In this document: in pieces, positions 1 through 22,689 of the stretch | Layout of the letters: every line of letters begins with the position of its first letter | Position numbering within the stretch: the first letter of the stretch is position 1 | Virus record (IMG/VR): IMGVR_UViG_3300031753_000285 | Location: 1-24,068 of that record | Length of the DNA: 24,068 nucleotides | Origin: a virus | Strand: one strand, 5' to 3' | The notes under the pieces: generated by a model | Database searches by the model: none | Seen by the model: the letters and a program-made list of their open reading frames with translations, nothing else | What the model was told of the DNA's origin: nothing | Program-made: the position numbers and the translations under genes

Positions 1-1159
1 CCAATACTGCGTGATCAACGTAGCCCCTGTTGGCAGTATCATAGACTACCTTGGTCATGTCACCCGGTCCCGGCGGACCTGTCGGTCCAGTCGGCCCAGT
101 CAGACCTGTCGGACCCTGCGGTCCTGTAGCGCCAGTGACGCCTTGCGGACCGGTCGCGCCAGTCGCTCCCTGGGCGCCAGTCGATCCTGCCGCGCCTTGC
201 GGGCCGGTCGCGCCTTGCGGGATCGTGAAGTTGAAAACGGCAGCGGAAGAGGAACCACTATTTGAAACCGCCGCATTAGTTCCGGCAGCGCCCGTAGTTG
301 TGGTGCCGACAGCTACTGTTGCCGCGCTTCCGGCTGGTCCTTGGGAACCGGTTGGACCGATTGGACCTTGACTGCCTGCTGGCCCGGTTGCACCCTGTGG
401 ACCAGTCGCTCCCGTGCTTCCCTGGATACCCGCTGGTCCCGCCGGTCCAGCCGGCCCGGTGGCTCCGACGTTTGCTCCAGAGTTAATGACGGTGGCTGGA
501 GTAGCATTTCCGGTATAGCCAAGGTTTTGAAGTGTAGCGACATTTCCCGCAACACTTTGAGTTGAATAGTAGCCCCCGCCTTGAATGTAGAGAATCAGCC
601 CAAGAGAAACTCCTGCCGAGCTGGTCAGGGTAACATTGACGTTGGAACCGACAGCCGGCTGAGTGTAATTGGCGGCAGTGGTAGTGGCGACAGTTGTTCC
701 GGCAGGCCCAGGTGGACCTTGAGCGCCAGTCGCACCTTGTGGCCCGGTCGAACCAGTCGCGCCGGGAGTTCCTTGCGGACCCGTCGCGCCTGCAGCGCCG
801 GATGGACCGGTTGGTCCCGCTGGACCTTGCGGTCCGGTTGTGCCTTGCGGGCCTGCTGGACCTTGCGGGCCGTTTGGGCCCGTGTTGCCGATTGGTCCCT
901 GTACGCCTTGCGTACCCTGCGGGCCCTGCGGACCAGGAGTACCCTGCGGGCCGGCAATGCCCTGCGGACCTGGTAATCCTTGGGTTCCCGGTGCTCCGCC
1001 CGGGCCGGCTGGTCCCTGTTGGCCCTGCTGGCCAGTAGCACCAGGCGGCCCCTGCGGTCCTGCGCCGGCGGCGTTGAACTGGAGGGTTACATCGACGGGA
1101 GTAAGCGAGACCGCAAACTGCGGCTGCTGCCATGACACCGTGAGATCTTCAGTCGGCAT
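1..1159 (-). CDS. Collagen-like phage fibre protein, C-terminus beyond the window
   Basis: Open minus-strand frame of 386 codons from ATG 1159, with no stop before the left edge. The first ~32 residues are non-repetitive, then 41 uninterrupted Gly-X-Y triplets (about residues 34-156). A Thr/Val-rich globular insert follows ([29 protein letters not shown]), of a kind that recurs in phage fibres, then more Gly-X-Y interrupted by a second insert ending [11 protein letters not shown]. The readable end, [19 protein letters not shown], is the typical exit from such collagen blocks in tail fibre and appendage proteins. GAGG lies about 10 nt before the ATG, and the start overlaps the upstream HTH gene by 11 nt, so the two are probably co-translated. 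Likely role: trimeric fibre stalk in the virion. The receptor-binding part would be outside the window. Confidence 0.87.
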
Positions 1160-10953: not shown

Positions 10954-11088
10954 GGGAATAGTTATTATTTTATTCCCCAGAGTCTACTACGTACTCTGGG
11001 AATAAATAATGAAACAAACTATTCCCGAATGGTTAATTCCTAGGAAAAAACCATTTCAGGAATTAACCCATATCCCAGGAATTAACCC
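10954..11088. repeat. Dense cluster of inverted and direct repeats; candidate origin or structured RNA
   Basis: Outer pair GGGAATAGTT (10954-10963) / AACTATTCCC (11017-11026). Nested inside is a stem of about 18 bp pairing 10964-10983 with 10993-11010 (with small bulges). Downstream, GGTTAATTCCT (11031-11041) pairs with AGGAATTAACC (11058-11068). CAGGAATTAACCC is present twice (11057-11069, 11076-11088), so alternative pairings exist. It is AT-rich against its surroundings and lies directly after the ATPase/nuclease operon. Confidence 0.8.
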
Positions 11089-11113
11089 TAACCAGCTACT
11101 CCACCATGCCTAA
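11009..11113 (+). CDS. Possible 34-aa microprotein
   Basis: ATG within the 3' arm of the large hairpin. It reads MKQTIPEWLIPRKKPFQELT and ends in an 8-nt overlap with the next start (ATGCCTAA). GGGAA lies 9 nt upstream. It is hydrophilic with no known motif. The overlap style fits this genome, but the underlying sequence is constrained by repeats, so the coding call is weak. Its start would be masked when the hairpin forms. Confidence 0.33.
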   Translation: MKQTIPEWLIPRKKPFQELTHIPGINPNQLLHHA

Positions 11114-11561
11114 TCCACTCCCGCTCCCGATCCATTTCAAACTCCCGGGCCGCTCCTATTCTCAAATCGGCCGCAAAGGTAACGTCGCCCTCTATTCCGT
11201 CTATTCCGATTACGTCAACAACCGCGCTTGTAGCCTCCCTTACATCCTCATCGGTTTCGAACTCATCGTTATCAAAATTAAAGACGGTTACGAAACCTAC
11301 CCTTCCGCTTGGCAATTCGGCAAATCCGCCTGGTCTATCCCCAAAAGCTTCTCTCGAGTTTGCTCTGCTGGCGCTCGACGCTGCGTCTGCGTCCTCGCCA
11401 AACTTCGAAGGCTCTCATTTGATTCCATTCCTTACCGGTCGACCTCTACCCAAGAATCCGCGCATCTGGCGTGGCGAACAGAACCGATTGGTGAAACGTC
11501 CTCGGAACAAGCCACATACACGCCACAAAGGAGGGTCACCCTCCTGAAAGGTCAGCTTTGA
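11106..11561 (+). CDS. Hypothetical phage protein with a probable frameshift after residue 80
   Basis: Codons 1-80 read as a normal small phage protein (PLPLPIHFKLPGRSYSQIGR ... KIKDGYETYPSAWQFGKSAWSIPK). After the CCCCAAAA run at 11339-11346 the same frame turns Cys/Arg/Ser-rich (RVCSAGARRCVCVLAKLRR). The +1 frame continues naturally (ASLEFALLALDAASASSPNF ... GRPLPKNPRIWRGEQNRL) to a stop at 11545-11547. Removing one base from the run would give a 146-aa protein. Either the gene is broken by a one-base insertion, the read has an error, or a +1 shift occurs on CCC/AAA. Function unknown. Confidence 0.55.
   Translation: MPNPLPLPIHFKLPGRSYSQIGRKGNVALYSVYSDYVNNRACSLPYILIGFELIVIKIKDGYETYPSAWQFGKSAWSIPKSFSRVCSAGARRCVCVLAKLRRLSFDSIPYRSTSTQESAHLAWRTEPIGETSSEQATYTPQRRVTLLKGQL
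11529..11545 (+). promoter_or_regulatory. Hairpin enclosing an AGGAGGG Shine-Dalgarno-like sequence
   Basis: AGGAGGG-TCA-CCCTCCT is a perfect 7-bp stem with a 3-nt loop, 13 nt before the TTG start at 11558. It could hide a ribosome-binding sequence or pause transcription. The nearer AAAGG (11547-11551) would be the ribosome site actually used for that TTG. Confidence 0.4.
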
Positions 11562-16456: not shown

Positions 16457-18706
16457 TCATTGTGCGCCGCCTCCCCCTGCGTTGCCGGCACCACCACCAC
16501 CCATGAGTGTGCTCTGAGGCGCGGGTGCTGGCCCGGTCCCGGTAAGCGACTGAGTCGGACCTGGGGGCACACCGAGTTTCCCGGTGACGGCATTCTGCTG
16601 CTGCGTGACCTGGAATTGGAGGTTTTTCATGCGCCGATCCAGAATCTGCATAGCAATCGGGTTCTGGCGCAGCGCATTGATGTAGCCTTGCTGCTGCAGG
16701 GTGTTCTGGATCACCTGTAACCGCAATTGCGCGTTTTGGCCCGAGGTGTACATGGGCGGCTCAATGCCGTCCGCTATCTTCGATAACTGATCCTGTTCAT
16801 CGTTGATTTCCTGCTGGCTGACCGCGGCCTGCGGCTGGATAAGCTGCCGCGCCAAGGCCGGATCTAGGGCTCGGGCTGCGTATTGGGTCAAGCCGGCCCG
16901 GTCGATCACGCCGGCTGCGTCAGTGGCCACTAACATCTGCTGAATCAACTGCAGTTTCTGCAAGACGTTCTCCTGGTTGAGATCTTTGGCGTCATACTCG
17001 AGCACCAGGTTCAGGTTGCGCTGGATCGATTGCCGGTCACGCTGCGGAACGGCGAGTTGGTCGCCTGAAGCGTTCATCCAGATCTCATCGGGCAGGTACT
17101 GCTGGCAAAGCTGATAGATCTGGACATGCACCATGCGCAGCTCGCCCAGCCAGTTGTCAATCAGGCGCTGCTGTTTGCGCAGGGCTTTGTTCGGATCGAC
17201 TCCCTCCATGTTTTTGCCGAAATAAGTGTAGGTATCCTGCCGGATACTGGTCTCAGTCTGGTAAGTAGTCTGATCGATCGGTGGAGGCTGTAGCCACGAT
17301 AGTTCTCCGGGTCGCATTACGCCCAATTGCGCGCGCGGCCCGAGCTTATACTGTTGTTTGCCGCGGCCCAGCGGCACCTGTAATGGCGGGATCGTGCAGA
17401 GCGCGGTGCGATCGTTACGGGAATCTTTCTGGAATTTAATCTCTGCCTGGGCCGTCATCGCGATATCGCCTACACCGCGGCTTTCCAGGGTCGAACGCGA
17501 ACGGCGCTCGCGCTGACACAAAACGAACGGGAATTTGCCGTGCGCATAGGGCAACGGCAACTGGCGCCCGATCAGCTCGAAGTTCGGATGGAATATATTG
17601 ACCAGCGTCTGGCGCCGGTTTTTATCGTCTTGCCCTCGGTAGAAACCGTAATAGACCTCGCAGAGCTCTTTCATCTCGTCGACGTAGAGCCGGTCCCTGA
17701 ACCGGAACAGGGTCTGCATGCCTAGATTAAGAAGGGCACTGCTCCCGGCACGTTCGAGAATCTCGGTCGTAAATTTCGGATCCCAATTCTCGTAGCGGCT
17801 GCGATCGATTACCGTCGATTTGGGGATGACGTCACGGCGCACGATCCAAGGCAGCCGCTGGAGATCGTAGGTGTTGCGGAAAAAGAAGATGTCCTGGTAG
17901 GTGCGGTATGCGGTCACGCACGGGCGGTTCTCTTTAATATAGGGTTTGTCGTAAGAGAAGCTCCCGGTGCGCATCAGGCTCATGAGAGCTTCCTGCGGGT
18001 TGCGCACGCTCATGTCGGTCGTGTAGGGAGTCGGTTTGGGAGGTGGCCCAACCGAGCGGGTAGTTGGGTCTAGCACCTCTTCAGGGGTCTGCGGCGGGCT
18101 GGCCAGGTCCGGGAAATATTGGGCCAGCATCTGCGCGGCTTGCGCGATATCGGTCTGTGACAGGCGCCTGGCGTTGCGCATCAGGTACTCGAGGAACGCC
18201 TGCAGTTGCGGGTCCATCTGCGCCATTTGCATCAGATCCTGCATGCCGACTGTCGTCACCTCCGAGTCAAAATCCAGATACCAGTCGATCCCGATGACGC
18301 TCGAGCCGTAGTGCTGGCGCCACTGGGCTGCCAACTCTTTTTCCCGGTCCATCTCTTCAGCCATCATGTTGCGCAAGACCCAGTCGAGCACGGCCGTCGT
18401 TGCGCTGGACTGCTCCTGGTAGGTCGAATTGCTCGGCAAGGTCTGCATGTGGCAGTTCTTGTCCGCAGTGCGCATGATGTCGACGTCGTCGATCACTAGG
18501 TCGTCGATGAAATACGGGCGGATGTCGGAGGCGCCTTCCCACGGGAAAACCTCTTTGCCGGTGTTCGCGCTCCATTTGCGACCGTCGTAGGTCTGGCCCG
18601 CCCAACGGCAGTAGCGGGTATCGTCGAGGGTAGATATAAAGGAGATGTACGAGCTCGCCTCAGTCAGAGCCCACGTGAAGGAACGTTTGACTTCCGAAAA
18701 ATTAAT
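16457..18706 (-). CDS. Portal protein, apparent ATT start
   Basis: 749 codons from ATT 18706, or 679 aa if only GTG 18496 is accepted. The 70 extra upstream codons clearly belong to the protein: a helical start (NFSEVKRSFTWALTEAS), then DTRYCRWAGQTYDGRKWS and VFPWEGASDIRPYFIDDLVID, the usual portal N-terminus. GGAGG (18714-18718) sits 7 nt before ATT, the optimal distance. The body has the long helical/wing pattern and Gln-rich C-terminal barrel helices, ending in a Gly/Pro-rich tail (GGGGAGNAGGGGAQ). The dodecameric portal is the DNA entry and exit ring of the head. It lies after TerL and a 2-TM gene, as in many tailed phages. Confidence 0.87.
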   Translation of the reverse strand: MNFSEVKRSFTWALTEASSYISFISTLDDTRYCRWAGQTYDGRKWSANTGKEVFPWEGASDIRPYFIDDLVIDDVDIMRTADKNCHMQTLPSNSTYQEQSSATTAVLDWVLRNMMAEEMDREKELAAQWRQHYGSSVIGIDWYLDFDSEVTTVGMQDLMQMAQMDPQLQAFLEYLMRNARRLSQTDIAQAAQMLAQYFPDLASPPQTPEEVLDPTTRSVGPPPKPTPYTTDMSVRNPQEALMSLMRTGSFSYDKPYIKENRPCVTAYRTYQDIFFFRNTYDLQRLPWIVRRDVIPKSTVIDRSRYENWDPKFTTEILERAGSSALLNLGMQTLFRFRDRLYVDEMKELCEVYYGFYRGQDDKNRRQTLVNIFHPNFELIGRQLPLPYAHGKFPFVLCQRERRSRSTLESRGVGDIAMTAQAEIKFQKDSRNDRTALCTIPPLQVPLGRGKQQYKLGPRAQLGVMRPGELSWLQPPPIDQTTYQTETSIRQDTYTYFGKNMEGVDPNKALRKQQRLIDNWLGELRMVHVQIYQLCQQYLPDEIWMNASGDQLAVPQRDRQSIQRNLNLVLEYDAKDLNQENVLQKLQLIQQMLVATDAAGVIDRAGLTQYAARALDPALARQLIQPQAAVSQQEINDEQDQLSKIADGIEPPMYTSGQNAQLRLQVIQNTLQQQGYINALRQNPIAMQILDRRMKNLQFQVTQQQNAVTGKLGVPPGPTQSLTGTGPAPAPQSTLMGGGGAGNAGGGGAQ

Positions 18707-18724
18707 TTTCAGTCCTCCATTTCA

Positions 18725-18916
18725 TCAGACTCGGATATTAGCCAGCGGCAAGAGCAACCAAATAAGAATCAGCACGAAAATCAGTATGACAATAAAGCGT
18801 GCGATCTGGGCGAACGGCGCGGGCATCGGCAAGTAGTTCAAAGCCCACCAAATCAGCCCAAAGATCAGCCCCAGGATCAGGATCACGATCAGGATATGGA
18901 TCAGGGCCGGGATCAT
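18725..18916 (-). CDS. Two-TM membrane protein, possible holin
   Basis: 63 aa: two hydrophobic segments, residues ~3-28 (PALIHILIVILILGLIFGLIW) and ~38-60 (IARFIVILIFVLILIWLLLPL), linked by LNYLPMPAPFAQ. This type (LP.PAPFAQ..R between two helices) recurs in phage genomes as an unnamed membrane protein. Two TMs and small size fit a class II holin, but no endolysin is in the window. It overlaps terL as ATGA. Confidence 0.7.
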   Translation of the reverse strand: MIPALIHILIVILILGLIFGLIWWALNYLPMPAPFAQIARFIVILIFVLILIWLLLPLANIRV

Positions 18917-20508
18917 AAAGGATCGGCTCCGATCGGATCAACCAGTTGCAAACTCCTGCCCACGTCGCACAGACCGGCAATAGCCATCCAACGGACGCAA
19001 TCGACTGGGTCTTTACAGGCGCCCAGTTTCTCGTCGCGTCCAGTCCAGACTTTGAGGGAAAAGATCACTGCCTTGCACTCGCTCGAGATGAAAAGCTTCG
19101 GCTCTTTACCATTGTCAGGGTCAAAATCCAATAACGAATTAATCAGAGAGACTCCTTCCTCGATCGGATCCAGCGGCGCCGGCGCAAACGGCAGATCCAA
19201 TAACGAGCACTCTTCGATCATCGTCGTAGCGGCATCGCTTTTGAGGTTTGGCGTGTTGCCGAAACGCGAGTCCATCCAGCGGCAAATGATCTCTTCGCGC
19301 TCTTTTCCATTGCCGTTCTGGTGTGTTTCGACTCGTTCGATTTCTGTGGCATAACGTTCTAAACCCCAACCGTAGGAACTTTGCGCCTGGCCCGCGCGCC
19401 CATCGCTTTTGCGCCCGTCCGATTCGGCCCATGGACCAGGGTCACCGACACCGGGGATGTAAACGCCTTCGCACGGCCACTCTCTATATATATAGTGGCG
19501 ATCTCGAGCGTCGACGAGTACCCAGATTTGAAACCAGTTGCGCGCACTGGCCGGATCGACAAAGTGATAGCGGCTGCCTTCCTTCGGGATTTTTTCGGGC
19601 TCAATAACATGAATTCCTTCGCGGAATTTCGGGAACCTGGCCAGGATCGCTCGAGTTGGAATCCCGTAAGCGCGCGTCTTAATTTCGTTTTTCGGCGCGC
19701 CGGCCAGCGTCTTTTTCATCGTTTCATAGCCGCCGAACGGATTGTCGATCGAATGGAAAAAAACGACGCTCGAGCCTCGCCTGACGCAGCGCTGCACTTT
19801 GGGCACATCAGCGCCCAATAGTTCCGCGTGAGCCGATTTGATCGTCTTGGCGCCGTCCAGAAACTCTTTGACCGTGGGACTGTATCCCTCGATCGGCGTG
19901 AAGGTGATTATGAGCAGGCCAGCCCGAGTTATCAGCCGGTAACGCAAGGTTTCAACCAGGGAGAGTGGCACTAGCTCATCGCACCAGATCAAATCGCAGT
20001 CGCCACCTTCAACGTTGATGTCTTCCTGGGAATAGTTCCGGAACACGCATTCGCTGCCGTTGGGGAAAATGAACTTGTTTTCCGAGAATCCGTTTTTTTG
20101 CGTGTAGCTGATGTTTGTTACCTGGCCTTTTTTTAACCCTTTGTATTCAGGCGGGATGTACTTGAAAACGATCGGTTGTTGCATCTCGATCGAGTTCGCT
20201 TCGGTGTTTTGCAGGCACCAAACGCGTCGTTTTTCGCCTGCCTCCATGATCTCAACGGCTTTGCGACCGGCGTATTCGCTTTTACTAGCCCGGTTGCCGC
20301 CCAGAATGAGCACTTCGCGCTGGCCGGCCGCCAGTTCCTCCTCAACCAGTTTCCAAACCGGCGGATGGTATCCGTAGTGCCATGGATCGGTCAGTTCCAG
20401 CTCGATCAACTCGTTGCGTTTGAGTAAATAGTCTTTGACACGTTCGGGGTCCGCAACGCTGTCCTCGAACGAGGGCAACGGATAGACTGGATGCGCCAGA
20501 ATCTTCAT
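18913..20508 (-). CDS. terL: Terminase large subunit
   Basis: 531 aa. ATPase domain: Walker A GGNRASKS (70-77), Walker B LIWCDE (173-178), then a coupling-motif-like ITFTPIEGYSPT. C-terminal RNase-H-like nuclease: D318 (HFVDPAS), D413 (CRWMDSRFG) and a late Asp (D500/D503, CKDPVDCVRW). It docks on the portal and pumps and cuts DNA during packaging. It starts at ATG 20508 beside the divergent intergenic region and is first in the leftward terL-2TM-portal unit. Length and motif order are normal. Confidence 0.95.
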   Translation of the reverse strand: MKILAHPVYPLPSFEDSVADPERVKDYLLKRNELIELELTDPWHYGYHPPVWKLVEEELAAGQREVLILGGNRASKSEYAGRKAVEIMEAGEKRRVWCLQNTEANSIEMQQPIVFKYIPPEYKGLKKGQVTNISYTQKNGFSENKFIFPNGSECVFRNYSQEDINVEGGDCDLIWCDELVPLSLVETLRYRLITRAGLLIITFTPIEGYSPTVKEFLDGAKTIKSAHAELLGADVPKVQRCVRRGSSVVFFHSIDNPFGGYETMKKTLAGAPKNEIKTRAYGIPTRAILARFPKFREGIHVIEPEKIPKEGSRYHFVDPASARNWFQIWVLVDARDRHYIYREWPCEGVYIPGVGDPGPWAESDGRKSDGRAGQAQSSYGWGLERYATEIERVETHQNGNGKEREEIICRWMDSRFGNTPNLKSDAATTMIEECSLLDLPFAPAPLDPIEEGVSLINSLLDFDPDNGKEPKLFISSECKAVIFSLKVWTGRDEKLGACKDPVDCVRWMAIAGLCDVGRSLQLVDPIGADPL

Positions 20509-20631
20509 TCGTATGCCATTGTGGCACTAATCTGCTTGATTTTTGCCACATTTCGACGCAATACACCATTCCAGTGGTTGCTGGGGAGCCCAAAATCCCC
20601 TGGACGCGGCATTTTTCTTGGTTAGCAAACC
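20509..20631. promoter_or_regulatory. Divergent late-gene promoter region with TGTGGCA boxes
   Basis: 123 bp between terL (left) and the scaffold gene (right). It contains ATTGTGGCAC (20518-20527), TGCCA/TGGCA dyad halves around it, and an inverted box TGCCACA (20544-20550). TTGATT at 20536-20541 is a possible rightward -35 with only a weak CAATAC -10. This is the natural place for late-gene control. Confidence 0.45.
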
Positions 20632-21648
20632 ATGGCAGAGGAGAATCAGAACTCCCAGGTAGTCGAAAAACCGGCGGAACCCGCTCCGGTCGAACCGGAC
20701 ATCGACAATCTGCTCGAGACAATCCCAGACTTAAAAGACCTCTTCGGTGAGTCTGGACAACCGGAGCAAAAGCCCACAGAAGCACCTTTAAAGGAATCAG
20801 GTGCTTCGGAGACCGTAGCTGAGGTCGAAATTCCAGAGGGACTCAAGCCCGAAGAACCAACCGCAGAGCCGGAACCCAAAAAAGAGGATATTTTGTCCGA
20901 ATCGGTCCAGAAACGGATCGATAAGCTAACCGCACAGAAGAAAACCGCCGAGGAACGCGCCACTAATCTCCAGACTGAACTTAACGACCTGAAATCGAAG
21001 TTCGTCGCGCCACCACCTGTTGCTCCCACGGCTGCAAGTCCATTATCTGATATCGAGAGCGATACCGATCTTGCAGCCAAGATTAACCATATCCAAGAGG
21101 CCAAAACCTGGTGTATCCAGCATTTGGACGGTGGCGAGGTAGATAAAGGTGACGGGACCAGGCAATGGCTGGAGGGCAATGTTGTTAAAAGCATCCTGGC
21201 CAACGCTGAGCTCATGCTTTCCAAGCATGTGCCGGAACGCAAGGAGTTCATCGCTAACAAGCGTGTTTTCGACGGCGAAGCGCAGCGGCAATACCCTGCG
21301 TTGTTCAAGGAAGGCACCGAGGCTAACAAGACCTACAACCAGTGGCTGAAGGTTTTTCCTGAGTGCCGGCGTTACCCTGATATTTCGTTGATTATCGGGG
21401 ATGCGATCGTAGGACAAAAGATTCGACTTGATAGGGCAAAGGCTCAAAACGGCAAAGTTCCAAATGGCAGTCAGCCTCTGGCGCCTCCTGCGCCTGCGGC
21501 CTCTCCAAGAGTTCCGCAAACCAGAACGCCGAGTGGCCAGCAACTTGCCGAAGCTTTCGCGAGTGATCCAAACGCAGCCCTAAACAGTTTCGTGGATTCG
21601 CTTATTGAAGGCGCAGCCGCTCAGCGAGCAGCAGCAGCCAAGAAATAA
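20632..21648 (+). CDS. Scaffolding protein
   Basis: 338 aa directly before the capsid gene (stop TAA immediately followed by ATG). An acidic disordered N-terminus (KPAEPAPVEPDIDNLLETIP), a central coiled coil (SVQKRIDKLTAQKKTAEERATNLQTELNDLKSK), then a helical domain with HIQEAKTWCIQHLDGGEVDK and YPDISLIIGDAIVG, and an Ala-rich end. This resembles head scaffold proteins of SU10-type and related phages. It would template procapsid assembly and then leave. Confidence 0.82.
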   Translation: MAEENQNSQVVEKPAEPAPVEPDIDNLLETIPDLKDLFGESGQPEQKPTEAPLKESGASETVAEVEIPEGLKPEEPTAEPEPKKEDILSESVQKRIDKLTAQKKTAEERATNLQTELNDLKSKFVAPPPVAPTAASPLSDIESDTDLAAKINHIQEAKTWCIQHLDGGEVDKGDGTRQWLEGNVVKSILANAELMLSKHVPERKEFIANKRVFDGEAQRQYPALFKEGTEANKTYNQWLKVFPECRRYPDISLIIGDAIVGQKIRLDRAKAQNGKVPNGSQPLAPPAPAASPRVPQTRTPSGQQLAEAFASDPNAALNSFVDSLIEGAAAQRAAAAKK

Positions 21649-22689
21649 ATGCCCAGCTTAACTGAGCCGATTCAAGTCGGCAAACGCGAAGATTTCGCGG
21701 ATGTAATCGCTATGGTCGATTACAAGGACACCCCGTTTAGTTCGATGTGTCCGAAAGGCACCGAGCCAGCCAACACGATCTATGACTGGCAAATGGATGC
21801 ATACGATGCGCCCACTCTGGGTGGTATTGTTGATGGAGTCGATGTCGCAAACACTGACTACGTGAATCCTGCCAGCAAGCGGGCGAAAGCGCACGGGCGA
21901 ATCCAGAAGTTTCGCCAGGCGTTCATGGTCTCCGACATGGCGCAGAACGTCTCTGACGTCGCCGGCATTGGCAAACGCGGCGAAATGCAGCGGGCGGTTA
22001 AGAAGACAATCGTCCAACTTAAACGAAATATGGAGCTCACCTTCTGCTCGGACCAGGACAGCCAAGCAGATAACGGATCCACGCTGCCTTACCTGACTCG
22101 CGGGATCGGCGCCTGGGTTAATGCTGGCGAAGTTACCATCACAGACACTGGCACCGCTTGCCCGCCAGGGTTTGTTCCGCCAGCGGGAAGCGTCATCACT
22201 AAGACGACGGCGACCACAATCGAGAGTGACATCAATACTGCGATGGGATCAATTTACGCGCTAACCGGCCAGCAGAAGGACTTCGACCTGCTCGTTGGGA
22301 CGGCCCTAAAGCAGTTGTTTTCTAGCTTTGCCGCCTGGGTGCCTAGTGCAGTCACCACTGTCCCGTTGCGGCGGTATAACCAGGATTCGACCGCGAAGCA
22401 AATCATCAACACTGTCGACTTTTGGCAAGGCGATTTCGGCTCCGTGAAATTGATCTTGAGCCTGTTTCTCGGAGGTCTGCCGGGAGGAGCACCACCTATT
22501 CCTCAAAACATTGTGAATGGGCGCGGCTACTTCTGCGACTGGGATCAATTAGAGCTCCGTTACAATCGTATGCCAGGCTATCAGGAGAATCCTAACCTTG
22601 GCGGTGGACCGAGAGGCTATGTGGATGCTATCTGCGGGCTAGTTATATACAATCCTCTTGGCTTGGGGAAAATTGCACCAACCGCATAA
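21649..22689 (+). CDS. Major capsid protein, SU10/DUF5309 type (HK97 fold)
   Basis: 346 aa. The N-terminus REDFADVIAMVDYKDTPFSSMCPKG followed by EPANTIYDWQMDAYDAPTLG is a hallmark of the SU10-like major capsid family. QAFMVSDMAQNVSDVAGIG and KTIVQLKRNMELTFCSDQ form the spine-helix region, and the C-terminal GYFCDWDQLELRYNRMPGYQ completes the P-domain. HK97-fold shell protein; about 346 aa is typical. Starts directly after the scaffold stop. Confidence 0.92.
   Translation: MPSLTEPIQVGKREDFADVIAMVDYKDTPFSSMCPKGTEPANTIYDWQMDAYDAPTLGGIVDGVDVANTDYVNPASKRAKAHGRIQKFRQAFMVSDMAQNVSDVAGIGKRGEMQRAVKKTIVQLKRNMELTFCSDQDSQADNGSTLPYLTRGIGAWVNAGEVTITDTGTACPPGFVPPAGSVITKTTATTIESDINTAMGSIYALTGQQKDFDLLVGTALKQLFSSFAAWVPSAVTTVPLRRYNQDSTAKQIINTVDFWQGDFGSVKLILSLFLGGLPGGAPPIPQNIVNGRGYFCDWDQLELRYNRMPGYQENPNLGGGPRGYVDAICGLVIYNPLGLGKIAPTA

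Follow-up and report, generated by a model that had tools for sequence, protein, structure and literature searches.

The Portal Locus

The stretch of DNA analysed here, referred to as the window, is a single metagenomic contig of 24,068 bases recorded as viral in IMG/VR. On its minus strand lies a putative gene for the portal, the ring through which DNA enters the capsid; the neighbors of this gene are those for a terminase, a scaffold protein and an SU10-type major capsid protein. The portal frame is open from the TGA at 18724-18722 through the stop ending at 16457. The features of the locus, all on the minus strand, are the following; L numbers designate related contigs, and AUH stands for AUU, AUC or AUA.

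16457..18706, minus strand: portal protein gene, 749 codons counted from the ATT at 18706-18704; homologues align from residue 1
18494..18496, minus strand: GTG, the first conventional start in the portal frame (codon 71); rejected as the main start
18497..18706, minus strand: 70-codon N-terminal extension without ATG, GTG or TTG; comparison of codons 2-70 with L002 gives 24 synonymous and 2 non-synonymous differences
18704..18706, minus strand: AUU proposed as the start codon of the portal gene; the same column holds ATG, GTG, ATA or ATC in relatives
18713..18718, minus strand: Shine-Dalgarno sequence GGAGGA, -9.3 kcal/mol to the anti-Shine-Dalgarno, 6 nt before the ATT
18722..18727, minus strand: two consecutive stops, TGA TGA, which close the 63-codon gene and share the portal frame; 18 nt separate the end of the first TGA from the ATT
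18725..18916, minus strand: inserted gene for a 63-aa membrane protein, between the terminase and portal genes; absent from L002, L005, L008 and L010
18913..18916, minus strand: ATGA, in which the terminase stop and the start of the inserted gene overlap; its counterpart in insert-free relatives is the portal start
18913..20508, minus strand: terminase large subunit gene (PHROG 2 terminase, E 4.7e-16), with an ATG start in the window and an AUH codon in L004, L008 and L026

When searched alone, the window portal protein matched no Pfam or PHROG family, and a sequence search of solved structures found no portal. In the family alignment, six of the 40 members match Pfam SU10_portal (best E 1.8e-6), the window protein itself not being one of them, and other members match PHROG portal or connector families. 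A structure model predicted from 40 sequences reached a pLDDT of 72; a first, poor one built from 12 sequences (pLDDT 47.7) was discarded. The retained model matches the solved portals of phages N4, SU10 and P22 over residues 1-575, the best match being the N4 portal (Z 29.5, rmsd 5.1, 403 aligned), with the SU10 portal at Z 26.9. According to this prediction, the window protein has the podovirus-type portal fold of N4, SU10 and P22, and the 70-codon extension fits the N-terminus of the solved portals.

The terminase and portal genes are divergent from the scaffold and capsid genes in the window (18913-22689), L002 and L003, and all four are on one strand in L005, L006, L009 and L026. At the contig end, a long frame (2-1159, minus strand) with collagen-like GPQG repeats probably codes for a tail fibre or a similar protein. 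No close prophage was found in the genome collection, which yielded only distant matches in Kiritimatiellae and Verrucomicrobia assemblies.

Sequence Context of the Proposed Start

In the portal frame, the minus strand reads GTC TGA TGA AAT across the end of the 63-codon gene, GGA GGA CTG AAA up to the ATT, and AAT TTT TCG GAA GTC AAA CGT after it. An earlier note on this DNA had described a portal frame continuing 70 codons past GTG 18496 without ATG, GTG or TTG, which a frame check confirmed, and a GGAGG (18718-18714) spaced 7 nt from ATT 18706-18704, which is indeed present on the minus strand. The Shine-Dalgarno energy of -9.3 is equalled or exceeded at just 0.7% of internal in-frame positions in three portal genes. 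Counting against the start, the sequence is mostly paired in the predicted local fold (mean unpaired 0.14), a pairing that might be relieved by ribosomes on the upstream gene.

Conservation of the Portal N-Terminus

A scan of IMG/VR yielded 11 portal relatives of full length with 82-92% identity, another that is cut off where its contig ends (L014), and a more distant pair with 36-37% identity; a search with the N-terminus added L026. As L005 and L012 are identical at the portal gene, there are 13 close relatives, 12 of them distinct, besides the window. In all 13 (12 distinct), the portal N-terminus is encoded from exactly the codon equivalent to the ATT. Alignment of these homologues showed the extension to be conserved, with a start column made up of ATG in 8 of the 12, GTG in two (L006 and L009), ATA in L003 and ATC in L004; the ATT of the window completes a set of 13 distinct close sequences. 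Portals at 56-63% identity mostly have ATG at the aligned position. The extension is thus a translated part of the portal protein, and the changes that separate it from its nearest relative, L002, point to strong purifying selection at the protein level. The view of the earlier note that the extension is portal sequence is borne out by the alignment of relatives, by this selection and by the fit to solved portals, and its proposal that the gene starts at the ATT gains support from homologues that reach the same first codon.

That the portal starts instead at GTG 18496, the extension lying outside the protein, is barely credible. This GTG is the first conventional start of the frame, but the extension is conserved as protein and present in relatives, residues from 1 on align to solved portals, and no Shine-Dalgarno sequence lies upstream of the GTG. 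Furthermore, the first canonical codon is not conserved, being codon 27 in L003 and codon 75 in L004. Homologues starting at the equivalent of GTG 18496 were looked for and did not occur.

A start further upstream, at CTG 18712-18710, would make the ATT an internal isoleucine codon and would explain the alternation of ATT, ATA and ATC. This CTG, which the earlier note passes over, is in frame, two codons 5' of the ATT (CTG AAA ATT), and the three AUH portals all read AAA-ATH. Moreover, in the terminase clade L157-L159 (67% identity) the aligned Ile codon is internal, with an ATG four codons upstream, so that an AUH codon at the terminase position need not always be a start. Against such an upstream start, the GGAGGA directly abuts the CTG and leaves no usable spacing; L003 has just one codon (AAA) between the stop TGA and its ATA, and the upstream stretch of L004 offers only another ATC. 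The last two cases mean that there is no shared upstream start, and we regard initiation at the CTG as unlikely. It is virtually inconceivable that stop readthrough or frameshifting on the 63-codon gene gives rise to the portal: the two are in the same frame with TGA TGA between them, but readthrough would have to pass two consecutive stops, and the upstream genes of L003 and L004 overlap the start of the portal in a frame different from its own.

Inserts at the Terminase-Portal Junction

The insert-free relatives L002, L005, L008 and L010 have an ATGA in which the portal ATG and the terminase TGA overlap. The two genes are separated by 157-821 nt in the window, L003, L004, L006, L009, L011, L014 and L026. 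The inserts are mutually unrelated, but all of them keep TATGA at the terminase end, and an open frame starts at the retained ATG in the window, L003, L004 and L011. Taken together, the retention of the old ATG at the terminase end and the unrelated nature of the inserts imply that the portal ATG was apparently captured by incoming genes. Five of the eight genomes with an insert, and none of those lacking one, have a portal start other than ATG. Placed on the portal tree, the AUH codons of the three portals call for three changes, and the sister of the window, L002, has ATG. The earlier note had offered an ATG-to-ATT point mutation as an alternative; this proved too simple, for the portal appears to have parted from an ATG, but the old one now starts the inserted 63-codon gene, and the portal therefore had to take a new start.

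With eight unrelated inserts in eight genomes, the junction appears as an insertion hotspot. The 63-aa protein of the window shows a weak match to the Thivi_2564 family membrane protein (E 1.4e-5, below the NCBIfam cut-off), and the L006 insert carries an HNH endonuclease gene (L006:4459-4998) just before the GTG portal. An HNH endonuclease frame is also found in L163, upstream of 3001, just before an ATC terminase. The L004 insert opens with codons (ATGAATTTTCCCGAA) similar to those at the portal start (ATCAACTTTGCGGAA), and this similarity could be the remnant of a duplication.

Removal of the insert as an intron or otherwise would join the retained ATG exactly to the second portal codon (ATG to AATTTT) and restore an ATG start. 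Weighing against this are the search of the window and seven loci, which gave no Rfam intron match at gathering score, and the inserts themselves, which are unrelated, 157-821 nt long and mostly filled by open frames. Removal would also leave the AUH terminase starts unexplained, and we consider it most improbable.

Clade Survey of Non-Canonical Starts

The terminase gene starts with ATT in L008 and L026, with ATC in L004, and with ATG or GTG in the others. All homologous genes across the clade contigs were surveyed, at least three homologous starts being required per gene. Six well-supported genes have no conventional start near the homologous position, and the codon found there is AUH in six of six. 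If any of the 58 other sense codons were possible, six AUH codons would arise by chance with a probability of about 2e-8. All six are portal or terminase genes, 6/23 as opposed to 0/82 other genes (Fisher p 6e-5, uncorrected for relatedness). That the codons are AUH is more secure than that they are confined to packaging genes, because relatedness is uncorrected and the other genes have fewer comparisons.

Two weaker AUH candidates, an ATT in L062 (minus strand, 197 codons) and an ATA in the window (11066-11558), were left out of the count, as each has one homologue and lacks a clear Shine-Dalgarno sequence. A terminase variant, L161-L163 (67% identity, one sequence at the site), has no conventional start near its N-terminus and has an ATC behind AGGAGG. 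A GTG or TTG occurs as codon 8 or 11 of some terminases, a point against the AUH reading. A pattern search for more AUH terminase starts returned the two known cases and otherwise only unrelated frames.

A Shine-Dalgarno sequence precedes every AUH start, with duplex energies of -5.4 to -12.6, and as a group these are stronger than those before the canonical starts of portal and terminase (p 0.005, uncorrected for relatedness). A strong Shine-Dalgarno sequence is also found at the two GTG portals, and the pattern appears to fit a rule by which a weaker codon goes with a stronger Shine-Dalgarno. Relative to the stop of an upstream open frame, every AUH start falls in the span from 44 nt before it to 24 nt after it, which, judged from the sequences, is the geometry of coupled translation. 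The terminase ATG of the window (20508) has almost no Shine-Dalgarno sequence (-1.5; region 20505-20530), and likewise that of L002; as the gene is also the first after the divergent gap, a leaderless message is possible for the window terminase.

These data bear on whether the ATT results from a sequencing or assembly error, the true codon being ATG, as the earlier note had allowed. ATT is one base from ATG, the window comes from one contig alone, and a search of IMG/VR for another copy of its junction returned none. For L003 alone, one surplus A in an A5 run would bring an upstream ATG in frame, which makes that case weaker. Independent contigs, however, have ATA and ATC at the portal codon and ATT, ATC and ATT at the terminase start, and six coincident errors, all yielding AUH and all beside a Shine-Dalgarno sequence, are implausible. 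Error is thus a very unlikely explanation.

Proposed Mechanism and Implications

We consider it highly probable that the portal is translated from AUU 18706-18704, a rare start codon, by genuine AUH initiation, the codon serving as a replacement start after the insertion of a cassette. In the ancestral state, the portal ATG would have overlapped the terminase stop as ATGA. Unrelated cassettes would then have entered the junction in the window lineage and separately in others, the old ATG staying at the terminase end, where it now starts the cassette gene. The replacement portal starts would be AUU in the window, AUA in one relative and AUC in another, GUG in two further relatives and AUG in three. 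Initiator tRNA would read the AUU with the aid of the strong Shine-Dalgarno sequence, and probably also with help from ribosomes arriving from the 63-codon gene, which ends 18 nt upstream.

Portal and terminase are low-copy proteins. The combination of a strong Shine-Dalgarno sequence with a weak codon may yield enough portal, and by analogy the protein may be made from the AUU at a reduced but sufficient level. Such a start would be expected to be sensitive to IF3, and selection might keep portal and terminase low through AUH starts. It is conceivable, if rather doubtful, that the clade uses AUH codons to control the dose and timing of the packaging machine, which would be low and rise late if IF3 became limiting relative to ribosomes, recurrent cassette insertion at overlaps supplying the variation.

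A literature search of partial coverage found no paper that describes AUH initiation in the portal or terminase gene of a phage. In practical terms, gene callers limited to ATG, GTG and TTG would lose 70 portal residues in the window and misplace starts in its relatives. The clade offers matched natural pairs, with AUG, GUG, AUU, AUC and AUA at one homologous start, and the differing Shine-Dalgarno strengths and upstream stops make the trade-off between codon, Shine-Dalgarno and coupling testable. It also constitutes a natural test of bacterial tolerance for weak start codons and points to a way in which an essential gene can lose its overlapping start codon to an inserted gene.

Comparison with Known Systems

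Gene 26* of phage T4 is a case of AUU initiation in a phage structural gene; it resembles the window portal as read here in both respects and differs in that its AUU is an internal start that gives a shorter product. Among bacteria, AUU, AUC and AUA have been reviewed as real starts that IF3 discriminates against (PMC4611024). In the RcsD-Hpt case of Y. pestis, mutation confirmed AUU as a working start (PMC10191623), there as an internal start in a frameshifted gene and not one arising from a cassette insertion. AUU or AUA sites with an extended Shine-Dalgarno sequence give about 10% of the AUG level in S. aureus, where cvfC1 (AUU) and ccpN and citZ (AUA) combine a weak AUH codon with a strong Shine-Dalgarno as the phage genes do (PMC13009471); those starts were established by ribosome profiling and reporters, whereas the phage starts are proposed from sequence.

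The gene for IF3 itself, infC, starts with AUU in E. coli, ATC in Streptomyces and AUA in S. aureus (PMC5472188, PMC4611024, PMC13009471). It shares with the phage genes an AUH start codon, which in infC is subject to IF3 discrimination. While infC autoregulates IF3, the genes considered here are structural and packaging genes of phages, and their start codon varies among close relatives. Lastly, the GTC start of Streptomyces sigR is repressed by IF3 and sets the ratio to the co-transcribed rsrA product (PMC5472188); its codon is GTC, not AUH, and its regulation is proven, and its likeness to the phage genes lies in a non-canonical start that sets, or in the phage would set, relative dose within one operon.
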